DNA from: Actinomycetota bacterium
Lineage (GTDB): Bacteria; Actinomycetota; Acidimicrobiia; Acidimicrobiales; JAMCPL01
Direction: 5' to 3'
DNA: 64,000 nt
NCBI GenBank assembly: GCA_023379675.1
Contig: JAMCPL010000007.1
Span: 43,637 to 107,636, forward strand
The position numbers and the translations under genes are program-made. Shown piece after piece: positions 36,160 through 40,454 of the stretch; the first letter of the stretch is position 1; every line of letters starts with the position of its first letter. The notes beneath the pieces are model-generated. The model was not told the DNA's origin, did not search any database, and saw only the letters and a list, made by a program, of their open reading frames with translations.

Positions 36160-37119
36160 TCATGGAGACACCACCTTATCCGGCACTCCGTCACGTAATC
36201 CGTTACTCGTCAGACCAGACCCATCCATATATTCGAGAGAATCCCGGGTAAGATTCATGAAAGTCTCCTCCAGGGAAGCCCCAGACCTGGATAGCTCGTG
36301 CAACGGAACGCCTATCCTGAATGCCAGATCACCAACAGCTTCGACCGTCATGCCCTCCACTGACAGCGCACCATCATGGCCTGCACGCACCGTTGCACCC
36401 ATCTCATCGATAGCCTGCCGCAACCTTGTGGACTCGGGCGTCCTCACCCTGACGACCTGGCGACTATTGCGTGCAAGAAAATCCGCCATCGAGGAATTCG
36501 CAATCATCCTGCCCTTCCCTATGACAATCACATGATCCGCGGTAAGTGCCATCTCGCTCATGAGATGGCTGGAAACGAAAATGGTTCTACCCTCGCCCGC
36601 AAGGTGATGCAATAAGTTCCTAACCCAGAGAATCCCTTCCGGATCAAGGCCGTTGATCGGCTCGTCGAAGAGAAGCACTTCAGGATCACCCAACAGCGCA
36701 GCAGCTATGCCAAGACGCTGGCCCATGCCGAGCGAGAACTTACCGGCACGCTTTCTCGCCACCTTTTCCAAGCCAACCAATTGCAATACCTCCTCAACCC
36801 TCGAGCGCTTGATCCCGTTGGCTGCGGCCAGAGCCAGCAAATGGTTGGAAGCGCTCCGTCCGGGATGGATCGCACGGGCCTCGAGTAGCGCACCCACCTT
36901 GTTCAAAGGACGCGATAGATCACGAAACCGTCTACCATCGATCCGGATACTGCCCGAATCTGGATAGTCAAGCCCCATTATCAGGCGCATAGTCGTCGAT
37001 TTCCCCGAACCGTTAGGACCGAGAAAGCCGGTAACGCTCCCTGGACGCACATCGAAAGTGAGATCATCTACGGCAACTGTATCGCCATAGCACTTTGTCA
37101 CACCTTGAACTTCAATCAT
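36160..37119 (-). CDS. ABC transporter ATP-binding protein
   Basis: 319 residues, CcmA/NatA-type ATPase: Walker A GFLGPNGSGKST, signature FSLGMGQRLGIA (LSGGQ replaced by FSLGM, common in ABC-2 exporters), Walker B EVLLFDEPINGLDP and switch His in VSSHLMSE. A C-terminal domain of ~100 residues follows. With the permease it should form a full exporter. AGGAGA lies 7 bases before the ATG. Confidence 0.92.
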   Translation of the reverse strand: MIEVQGVTKCYGDTVAVDDLTFDVRPGSVTGFLGPNGSGKSTTMRLIMGLDYPDSGSIRIDGRRFRDLSRPLNKVGALLEARAIHPGRSASNHLLALAAANGIKRSRVEEVLQLVGLEKVARKRAGKFSLGMGQRLGIAAALLGDPEVLLFDEPINGLDPEGILWVRNLLHHLAGEGRTIFVSSHLMSEMALTADHVIVIGKGRMIANSSMADFLARNSRQVVRVRTPESTRLRQAIDEMGATVRAGHDGALSVEGMTVEAVGDLAFRIGVPLHELSRSGASLEETFMNLTRDSLEYMDGSGLTSNGLRDGVPDKVVSP

Positions 37120-37408: not shown

Positions 37409-39043
37409 ATGCGAGTACAACTGGTCTCCACCTACGAACTCGGGCACCAGCCGCTGCAATTGGCATCAGCGGCTGCATGGCTCAGAAATGCAGGATACGA
37501 AGTAACGTGCATTGATCTAGCCGTGCAGGCACTCGACATATATTTGATGGCACAGGCGGACGCCATCGCCATCTCAGTACCCATGCATACGGCATCCCGT
37601 CTCGCCCTTCGCCTGGTAGGGCAGCTGAGGGCTGCCGGTATCAATGCACCAATCGCCCTGTACGGGCTTTACGCAAATGTCGCATCGTACTCGGCCGATA
37701 ACCCAGCCACGGCCAGCGCGCCCACCGGCGTCGATGCCTTCTTTTCCGGAGAGTACCATCCGGCACTTACCGGCTGGGTCGACGAGATTGCCAAAGGGAT
37801 ACACGGTTCACGGTGCCGTCAAGGTGTTGCATCTATCTGTGAGCCAGTCAATCATACGGTCAGCAACCATTATCTGGACACTCCTGAAAGCAATCCCATG
37901 AAAGGCGGCATCACCAGCCAGGCCCGTAGACGGCAGGTGTCGCTTAACATAAAGCGCCACGATTCCCTGGTGCCCGATAGGAACGGACTGGCACCGTTGA
38001 AGCGATATGCACGACTTCGCGTCGGAGACGAGGAGCGATTGGCCGGATACGTGGAAGCGACTCGGGGATGTTCCCATCGCTGCCTCCACTGTCCCGTTCC
38101 CACCGTATACGACGGCAGGATCCGTAAGGTTGGAGTCGACACTGTCCTCGCAGACGTAGAACACCTCGTAGACGCGGGCGCCAAACACATCACCTTCGGT
38201 GATCCAGATTTCCTGAATGCACCCGGTTACGCCATGGAAGTTGTACGTGAATTGCACGCTGCGTTCACTCATCTCACGTTCGATGCAACCATAAAGGTGG
38301 AACATATCGTTAAGTATCCGATGCTCTTCCCCAATCTCGCACAAGCGGGATGCCTATTCGTGGTATCAGCATTCGAGTCCGCCTCAGACGTTATACTTGG
38401 CAAACTCATGAAAGGCCACACCTACAGGGACATGGAAACAGCAACTGGCATTCTACGATCTTGCAGCATCGAACCACGGGTATCATTGGTTCCGTTCACG
38501 CCTTGGACCACGCCTGATGACATTATCGACCTACTCGACATGGCGGCGGTTTTCGACTTGATACCCAACATAGATACAGTGCAGTGGTCCATCCGCCTGC
38601 TCGTGCCGCCTGGATCACTGCTGCTCGATACGCCTGCCAACTCCGATGTATTCGGCACGCTGGACGCCGAGCATCTCGGTCACACCTGGCAATCGGCTTA
38701 CCCGGTGCTCGATGACCTCCAGGTGGAACTGGACAACCTGGCCTCCAAAGCCGCACTGCAAGGTATCGACGCTGCCTATGCATACACGCTAATAAGAGAG
38801 CGGGCCTTGGAAATGCTGTATACGTCCCACATGACGCATTTACCGCATCCATCCCCAGGCACAGAGAAAGTGGCAAGTGCTGGAAGGTGGCACGATCCAG
38901 CTAAGGATATACCATCGCCTGCAGCACACCTACGCTCCCCCATCCCCGCGGAGATGCGCCCCTCGCTGACCGAGGCATGGTTCTGCTGCGCTGAACCAAC
39001 AAGCTTCCAGGTAGACCAAGTGAACTGTGACACGCGATGCTGA
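37409..39043 (+). CDS. B12-binding radical SAM protein with CCAEP tail
   Basis: 544 residues. Residues ~1-130 look like a cobalamin-binding Rossmann domain. The radical SAM domain carries the 4Fe-4S ligands Cys221, Cys225 and Cys228 in TRGCSHRCLHCPVP, then GDPDFLNAP and SAFESAS. The C-terminus reads WFCCAEPTSFQ and ends in a second Cys-rich stretch (VNCDTRC). From memory this is the family named CUAEP/CCAEP-tail radical SAM (seleno)protein; here both tail positions are TGC cysteines (~526-527), so this is the Cys form. The substrate is not known. The next gene overlaps by 7 bases. TAATCT at 37396-37401 could give a leaderless transcript. Confidence 0.88.
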   Translation: MRVQLVSTYELGHQPLQLASAAAWLRNAGYEVTCIDLAVQALDIYLMAQADAIAISVPMHTASRLALRLVGQLRAAGINAPIALYGLYANVASYSADNPATASAPTGVDAFFSGEYHPALTGWVDEIAKGIHGSRCRQGVASICEPVNHTVSNHYLDTPESNPMKGGITSQARRRQVSLNIKRHDSLVPDRNGLAPLKRYARLRVGDEERLAGYVEATRGCSHRCLHCPVPTVYDGRIRKVGVDTVLADVEHLVDAGAKHITFGDPDFLNAPGYAMEVVRELHAAFTHLTFDATIKVEHIVKYPMLFPNLAQAGCLFVVSAFESASDVILGKLMKGHTYRDMETATGILRSCSIEPRVSLVPFTPWTTPDDIIDLLDMAAVFDLIPNIDTVQWSIRLLVPPGSLLLDTPANSDVFGTLDAEHLGHTWQSAYPVLDDLQVELDNLASKAALQGIDAAYAYTLIRERALEMLYTSHMTHLPHPSPGTEKVASAGRWHDPAKDIPSPAAHLRSPIPAEMRPSLTEAWFCCAEPTSFQVDQVNCDTRC

Positions 39044-39741
39044 AAGGCAGTGCGCGGAGCATACGCTGGATAAGCATACCCGACGCAGACGATGACCGGA
39101 CATGGATGGTGGACCGGGACTTCCTGCAAAGTAGTTGGAAGTGCATCTATGGCGAGGGCTGCAAAGGAGTACTCACGGTGCCGGCAGAGCATCCACACCT
39201 TGGGTGCTGCTCACATGGTGCGCACTTACGTGATCATAATGATGCCGAGCGAGTAGCCAATGCAGCGAGATCACTCACTGCGCAAGAATGGGAGCGCTAC
39301 CGTAACGGTCACGATTCCCGCGGATCCATCCGGGTGTTCAAGGCGACCAAGGGAGGCGGGCAATGCACCCGCAGCGTGTCGGGCTCTTGCATATTCTTGA
39401 ATGGCCCATCATTTCCCGGTGGACCCGGATGTGCCCTCCATCGTGCCGCACTTGCGAGAAAAGTGCATCCTCTCACCATGAAGCCCGACGTTTGCTGGCA
39501 ACTGCCGATCAGATGGGAAGATGTATCGATGGAAAGCGGGCATATCATCAGCTTTCTCGGATGCTGGGACCGCAGTGACTGGGGTGAGGGTGGCAACTAT
39601 TTTTACTGGTGGTGCACTGAAGCAGCGGAGGCTTATAGCGCCGATCAAGCGCTGTACAGGAGGTACACCCACGAGCTCACAGCAATTATGGGCAAACGGG
39701 CGTATCGGAGGCTGGCGAGAACGCTGGAGCGTCTTACCTGA
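39037..39741 (+). CDS. Cysteine-rich protein coupled to the CCAEP radical SAM gene
   Basis: 234 residues with about 11 Cys in metal-site-like groups: CIYGEGCKG, HLGCCSHGAHL, the CTRSVSGSC pair, then GCALHRAALARKVHP and DVCWQLPIR. The spacing resembles Cys-rich DUF3109/YkgJ-type putative metal-binding proteins, but I cannot assign it firmly. Its start overlaps the radical SAM gene by 7 bases (ATGCTGA), so the two are co-translated. It may be a redox or Fe-S partner, or a substrate of the radical SAM enzyme. A later start is possible. Confidence 0.7.
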   Translation: MLKGSARSIRWISIPDADDDRTWMVDRDFLQSSWKCIYGEGCKGVLTVPAEHPHLGCCSHGAHLRDHNDAERVANAARSLTAQEWERYRNGHDSRGSIRVFKATKGGGQCTRSVSGSCIFLNGPSFPGGPGCALHRAALARKVHPLTMKPDVCWQLPIRWEDVSMESGHIISFLGCWDRSDWGEGGNYFYWWCTEAAEAYSADQALYRRYTHELTAIMGKRAYRRLARTLERLT

Positions 39742-39772: not shown

Positions 39773-40039
39773 TCAGGGTTCCTCTGAAAGTGGGTCCTTT
39801 TCGACGCGGGCCTGCGAGCCATCCTGGCCGTGCTGGGTTGCAAGGCTATCGCCCGCGGCCAGACCATTTTCAGAAACGTCGCCAAGAATCTCTTCCCATA
39901 CGCCTTCTTCCGCCATACACCACGCGGCATGATCGTCATCTCCCTCAGCCCCGCACTCCGGGCACCTGTGATGCTCCAGCGACGCCGACCTCTTCAGGAT
40001 GCGCGCCTCCTCGAAACGACGATGTCTTCCCTTTTTCAC
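39773..40039 (-). CDS. Small zinc-ribbon-like protein
   Basis: 88 residues, basic N-terminus (MKKGRHRRFEEARILKRSASL) followed by a possible half zinc ribbon (HHRCPECGAEGDDDHAAWC) and an acidic C-terminus. GGGAGG sits 8 bases before GTG 40039, a strong ribosome site that supports it as a real gene. It is convergent with the Cys-rich gene. I do not recognise a named family; nucleic-acid binding is a guess from the Cys/His pattern and charge. Confidence 0.6.
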   Translation of the reverse strand: MKKGRHRRFEEARILKRSASLEHHRCPECGAEGDDDHAAWCMAEEGVWEEILGDVSENGLAAGDSLATQHGQDGSQARVEKDPLSEEP

Positions 40040-40232: not shown

Positions 40233-40454
40233 ATGGCAGACTTCAATCCAGACGATATGACAGCACGATTCAAAGAACGCGCAGGTGCCGTCAAACGTAG
40301 AGGGATACCGCCAGTGGAAGGCCCGGAACGCCAGCAATTCATAGAGCAAGCTCGCCTTGATTACATGGACTTCGCCATGCTCGGAGATGCCACGGCGACG
40401 TTGGAAGACGGCATCTTGACGCTCAGAGTGGACCTGCGACCGTCACGGGCATAA
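40233..40454 (+). CDS. Small conserved-looking acidic protein
   Basis: 73 residues starting MADFNPDDMTARFKERAGAV, with a helical first half (RQQFIEQARLDYMDFAMLGD) and a beta-like end (ATLEDGILTLRVDLRP). The composition and a clean start look like a real gene, and I recall similar short proteins in actinobacterial genomes, but no function. It has no membrane segment or metal motif. It is probably expressed from a leaderless transcript. Confidence 0.7.
   Translation: MADFNPDDMTARFKERAGAVKRRGIPPVEGPERQQFIEQARLDYMDFAMLGDATATLEDGILTLRVDLRPSRA

Follow-up and report, generated by a model that had tools for sequence, protein, structure and literature searches.

The radical SAM protein encoded on the plus strand at 37409..39043 of the window, the 64,000-nucleotide stretch of DNA that was analysed here, is a member of an already known family whose function is still unassigned, and it is very probably linked to an ATP-grasp ligase whose gene lies in another part of that genome. 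This near-obligate association with a ligase is the new element in the analysis, and the Cys-rich ORF that overlaps the radical SAM gene is dropped as a general partner. Because the ligase appears to be the real partner, our results suggest that the two enzymes form an uncharacterised two-step pathway present in many bacterial phyla. The original prediction had proposed a two-protein system; one does exist, with the ligase and not the overlapping ORF as its second protein.

The radical SAM protein is 544 residues long and consists of a B12-binding-like Rossmann domain, a radical SAM core, a variable linker and a C-terminal tail. It was placed from the outset in the CUAEP/CCAEP family, and this assignment was borne out by a score of 500.4 bits against NCBIfam model NF040546, which is only just over the cut-off of 500. 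The second-best NCBIfam family was NF040542, ArsL, at 231.5 bits, and the rest scored about 44 bits or lower. Pfam Radical_SAM was matched at 1.3e-12, and the CxxxCxxC motif for the SAM-binding [4Fe-4S] cluster (C221, C225 and C228; 38069..38092, plus strand) is invariant in an alignment of 56 sequences. An AlphaFold2 model built from 56 sequences has a pLDDT of 88.5 and a pTM of 0.89. The same family, with the same tail, is annotated in Thermomicrobium roseum (WP_012643191.1). The window protein departs from it in its edge-of-model score, in carrying Cys rather than Sec, in its extended C-terminus and in a loop at about residues 134-171 that is modelled with low confidence.

The fold of the model matches those of OxsB, AprD4, TsrM and MgmA, and the N-terminal domain gives a weak Pfam B12-binding match, which together would be consistent with a B12 enzyme, such as a cobalamin-dependent methylase, that works on the product of the ligase or on a precursor of it. 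However, the B12-binding score of 28.0 bits falls below the cut-off of 32.1, so that the domain can be called B12-binding-like only, and the DxHxxG cobalamin motif is absent from residues 1-120. The window protein therefore lacks both of the features, an above-threshold B12-binding domain and DxHxxG, by which a cobalamin-dependent radical SAM enzyme would be recognised. A His near the place of DxHxxG is not retained in ArsL, and fold alone is no proof of bound B12. We consider a B12 enzyme improbable.

The C-terminus of the protein reads ...TEAWFCCAEPTSFQVDQVNCDTRC. It includes, as had been read from the sequence, a WFCCAEP tail (residues 524-530; 38978..38998, plus strand) with vicinal Cys526-Cys527, followed by a further pair of Cys residues at 540 and 544. 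In the 56-sequence alignment, which spans several phyla, a variable linker precedes a block in which E522, W524, F525, C526, C527, E529 and P530 are invariant. The consensus E-x-W-[FY]-C-[C/U]-x-x-P holds within the class and in 80 loci from a scan of GTDB genomes. These loci are the best 80 matches of the scan and are skewed to Actinomycetota; the matches come from Actinomycetota, Chloroflexota, Nitrospirota, Rokubacteria, Poribacteria, KSB1, Gemmatimonadetes, Planctomycetes and Acidobacteriota/Blastocatellia. In the AlphaFold2 model the pLDDT values of successive blocks from residue 501 to 540 are 94, 97, 84 and 84, those of blocks 511-520 and 521-530 being 97 and 84, and the last four residues fall to 50. 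The extra terminal Cys pair (NCDTRC) is confined to the window's genus. Taken together, the alignment, the per-block pLDDT and the restriction of NCDTRC to one genus indicate that the tail is conserved and modelled as ordered, and that the last Cys is neither. A disordered and unconserved tail had been named in advance as grounds for abandoning the prediction; what we found is a tail that is real, conserved across phyla and ordered in the model.

Position 527 of the tail is Sec in many relatives. The original prediction put selenocysteine at the first tail position and was wrong by one residue: in-frame TGA codons in relatives fall at the second residue of the pair (C-U-AEP), and a first-position Sec is rejected. 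When the second-Cys codon was read by eye in the 80 loci, it was TGA in 28 and a Cys codon in 51, with one locus cut off. Two loci labelled as Sec by script (L134 and L148) actually have Cys, their TGA lying further downstream. The codon at this position in the window gene is TGC, which makes it the Cys form and not a selenoprotein gene. SelB scoring over the curated cut-off is present in 12 of the 14 genomes of the class that have a TGA-type gene, and none was found in the window's genome. As a side observation, the Thermomicrobium roseum protein (L192:7935-9371) was deposited with an end at ...WFC because a probable Sec TGA was taken as a stop; the codons past this TGA give AEP.

The gene that overlaps the radical SAM gene lies at 39037..39741 on the plus strand and encodes a Cys-rich protein of 234 residues. 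The reported overlap of 7 bases is exact (ATGCTGA), and the number of Cys residues is 10 (at 36, 42, 57, 58, 110, 118, 132, 153, 176 and 193) rather than about 11. The protein appears to be a distant relative of DUF3109 (PF11307): 22 of 41 homologues match that family, the best at 9.5e-7, while the copy in the window matches nothing in Pfam or NCBIfam, DUF3109 included. A PDB sequence search with a profile of the protein returned nothing significant, and a structure model of moderate confidence (pLDDT 71, from 7 sequences) gave no match in Foldseek.

In the original prediction this protein was proposed as the partner of the radical SAM enzyme, perhaps an Fe-S carrier or its substrate. The overlap itself speaks for such a role, as does the invariance of 8 of the 10 Cys residues among the 41 homologues. 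Gene order within the window's order points the same way: in nine of 11 comparable genomes the two genes share a strand and are no more than 1 kb apart, the other two having the genes 3.8 kb apart in one case and on separate contigs in the other. These belong to a set of 34 genomes that have both genes in comparable positions, and in none of the 23 from outside the order does the Cys-rich gene adjoin the radical SAM gene. Co-occurrence was the test set beforehand for this partnership, and it failed. Among 395 genomes of the class, the Cys-rich gene is present in 172 and the radical SAM gene, counted at a best E value of 1e-60 or below, in 119; both occur in 44, the Cys-rich gene only in 128 and the radical SAM gene only in 75. 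No association between the two was detected in this set (odds ratio 0.68, p = 0.10). The Cys-rich gene is also kept beside or near nfuA in two genomes, G393 and G047, that have neither the radical SAM protein nor the ligase, and in G283, from the same family as G393, the ligase and radical SAM genes are placed between nfuA and the Cys-rich gene. Since co-occurrence is absent and adjacency stops at the boundary of the order, the overlap reflects local gene order and not a general partnership. The best reading of these profiles and positions is that the Cys-rich DUF3109-like gene stands on its own and is joined in an operon with the radical SAM gene only in this order. Its role as a general partner is largely refuted, an obligate one is ruled out by phylogenetic profile and position, and a dedicated carrier or substrate is very unlikely.

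To identify recurrent neighbours, genes around 104 radical SAM loci were clustered; at least four of these loci are the same contig fetched twice, and the ORFs behind the gene calls are mechanical, backed by homology. The dominant neighbour is a protein of about 430 residues found in 59 of the 104 loci, in 57 on the same strand as the radical SAM gene and in 49 within 150 bp of it. It contains Pfam ATP-grasp_4 and LAL_C2, the C-terminal domain of L-amino-acid ligases. Both domains, on which classification as an L-amino-acid ligase depends, were found in the orthologue that was scanned, from locus L105, with which the ligase of the window's genome shares 42% identity over 419 columns. The domain composition is that of BacD-like L-amino-acid ligases, but the resemblance to BacD itself is weak (50 bits against a cut-off of 850).

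In genomes of the class hand-picked from the presence lists, with the ligase counted at E values of 1e-40 or below, the ligase is present in 78 of 79 that carry the radical SAM gene (9/9, 40/40 and 29/30) and in one of 70 that lack it (1/40 and 0/30). Fisher's test gives a p value of about 1e-40, which overstates the independent evidence as the genomes are related. In the lone radical SAM-positive genome without a ligase, G191, the radical SAM gene is 152 bp from a contig end and a ligase gene could have been cut off. Four families include genomes with and without the radical SAM gene. The ligase tracks it in three of them (f5, f25 and f33), and the exception in the fourth (f36) is G070, which has the ligase on a short contig and no radical SAM gene. 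In two genomes of about 1 Mb, G017 and G025, the ligase matches are weaker, at 31-32% identity, and orthology is less sure. These two belong to a family, f34, whose genomes of about 1 Mb retain the radical SAM gene.

Gene order varies between phyla. The arrangement is ligase-radical SAM in Actinomycetota and Chloroflexota, radical SAM-NifU-ligase in Rokubacteria and radical SAM-DUF169-ligase in Nitrospirota, and these differences argue for a functional link rather than a merely inherited order. A gene with a NifU/NfuA domain lies near the radical SAM gene in 51 of the 104 loci. Such a protein, a genuine candidate for an Fe-S carrier, is encoded next to the radical SAM protein or the ligase in many genomes, and this weakens the proposal that the Cys-rich ORF supplies Fe-S clusters. 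DUF169 is found near the radical SAM gene in 26 of the 104 loci; it was considered as a core member and rejected, as it is present in only 11 of 21 radical SAM-positive genomes (against one of 21 negative ones). It is absent from the window's genome, and we regard it as accessory.

In the window's genome the ligase gene is on another contig (G000:C10:10895-12151), divergent from nfuA and near aroC, a placement in the nfuA/aro region that matches an arrangement found elsewhere. The separation of the two genes in this genus is why the ligase was invisible when the sequence of the window was first read. One tight gene overlap can thus mislead: the overlapping gene was the wrong partner, and the right one was elsewhere in the genome. 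In our literature search CUAEP, RCCLKC and DUF3109 went unmentioned, and selenoprotein, radical SAM and ATP-grasp never appeared in combination.

By sequence, the closest characterised enzyme to the window protein is ArsL, the radical SAM enzyme in the biosynthesis of arsinothricin, an arsenic antibiotic. In E. coli, ArsL is required for the conversion of arsenite to hydroxyarsinothricin (PMC8552651), and radical transfer of 3-amino-3-carboxypropyl to arsenic was reported by Yao et al. 2024, as cited in PMC12159101. The two proteins share their domain layout and a C-terminal vicinal Cys pair, and 46 of the 72 columns conserved at 95% or above in the CUAEP family are identical in three ArsL/RCCLKC proteins. 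The CC of the CUAEP tail aligns with the CC of RCCLKC. Two motifs, D-x-DF-x-N and F-x-PW, are common to the CUAEP family and ArsL and are incomplete in the aligned parts of MgmA and AprD4. The differences are also clear. At 231.5 bits the window protein misses the ArsL cut-off of 450, the ArsL tail is RCCLKC in place of WFC[C/U]AEP, and none of the three ArsL copies has Sec. ArsL has ArsM, ArsQ and ArsR genes as neighbours, unlike the CUAEP loci surveyed. No ars or arsinothricin context (ArsM, ArsQ, ArsR or ArsN1) was found near the window gene, and no ars family is among the 25 commonest of the 92 Pfam families in 113 non-recurrent neighbours, a survey in which single cases could be missed.

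As a suggestive parallel, an ATP-grasp protein is encoded in ArsL-type clusters on plasmids of Alicyclobacillus and Priestia (L194:1430-2662 and L195:1684-2907), a hint of arsinothricin conjugates. Orthology of this protein with the CUAEP-linked ligase is unsupported, as a tree with long branches and weak deep forks places it among paralogues.

Family membership, conservation of the tail, the exchange of Sec and Cys, the co-occurrence and adjacency of the ligase and the lack of co-occurrence with the Cys-rich gene rest directly on sequence data. Drawing on ArsL as the closest characterised enzyme, with its shared columns and aligned CC, and on the family of the ligase, we infer what the two enzymes do and how the tail contributes as follows. 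The radical SAM enzyme would cleave SAM non-canonically. Its C-terminal vicinal pair, Cys-Cys or Cys-Sec, would fold back on the core and hold a soft atom, which would receive the 3-amino-3-carboxypropyl group of SAM. The likeliest acceptor would be arsenic in its trivalent state, or else a related metalloid or chalcogen. The ATP-grasp ligase would then couple the new amino acid to another one or to an amine. Fe-S clusters may come from the neighbouring NfuA-type protein, and DUF169 may assist in some members of the family. This is our preferred scheme, but we hold it as a whole only tentatively, and it may well prove wrong. Against it stand the failed ArsL cut-off, a tail unlike RCCLKC and the position of ArsL-linked ligases outside the CUAEP-linked ligase group in the tree.

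The tail could serve another purpose. Thioredoxin reductase has a C-terminus of Gly-Cys-Sec-Gly, and exchange between Sec and Cys is known from redox selenoproteins. The vicinal Cys/Sec pair might accordingly act as a redox or hydrogen-atom relay that gives an electron or H atom to an organic-substrate radical, in which case the enzyme would use canonical 5'-deoxyadenosyl chemistry and the ligase would act before or after it on the same substrate. The interchange of Sec and Cys at the second tail position would fit a relay, as would a tail modelled as ordered behind a flexible linker and the finding that the commonest families of neighbours include no ars genes. Yet in the nearest characterised relative, whose C-terminus likewise has vicinal Cys, SAM donates an aminocarboxypropyl group, and no dedicated reductase is among the recurrent neighbours of the radical SAM gene. 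A relay is possible, but we think it doubtful.

Returning to transfer of an aminocarboxypropyl group followed by ligation, the identity of the acceptor is constrained by two observations. The absence of ars families among the commonest neighbours and the retention of the radical SAM gene in very small genomes make an arsenic substrate less favoured, and the retention of the gene in genomes of about 1 Mb argues against a toxin or antibiotic as the product. It is conceivable, though we would not expect it, that the two enzymes make a new small metabolite in which an amino acid of a metalloid, selenium or sulfur, substituted with aminocarboxypropyl, forms a peptide-like conjugate. Such a metabolite would occur broadly among bacterial phyla and would matter enough for even genomes of about 1 Mb to have kept it. 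If the ArsL-like reading is true, aminocarboxypropyl radical transfer extends beyond arsenic antibiotic clusters and diphthamide, in a pathway that spans several bacterial phyla and includes very small genomes. A family known only by an odd Cys/Sec tail can in any event now be tied to a near-obligate second enzyme and to a relative that has been characterised, and its chemistry is therefore directly testable with two purified proteins.

Several other genes surround the radical SAM gene in the window. An 88-residue zinc-ribbon-like protein (KKGRHRRFEEAR...CPECGA...WC) is encoded at 39773..40039 on the minus strand and a conserved 73-residue protein at 40233..40454 on the plus strand. The zinc-ribbon gene and small ORFs had been noted alongside; the zinc-ribbon and 73-residue genes are indeed conserved, as a chromosomal backbone that is independent of the radical SAM gene. 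Within the order they adjoin the Cys-rich gene whether the radical SAM gene is present or absent, and in many of its genomes those of the KKGRHRRFEEAR type and the 73-residue type are grouped with the DUF3109-like one. On the other side, an ABC transporter ATPase gene (36160..37119, minus strand) is divergent from the radical SAM gene. Because an ATPase and a permease of the same clusters as the window's transporter occur at the Cys-rich-gene locus of G231, where there is no radical SAM gene, the transporter is not specific to the radical SAM protein. In two loci from soil Acidimicrobiaceae MAGs (L114 and L133), a pst-like phosphate transport operon directly follows the radical SAM gene, with PstS identified in L114. 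Two further loci (L102 and L137) come from records titled Bifidobacterium breve; the loci are Acidimicrobiia-like, and the titles look wrong.
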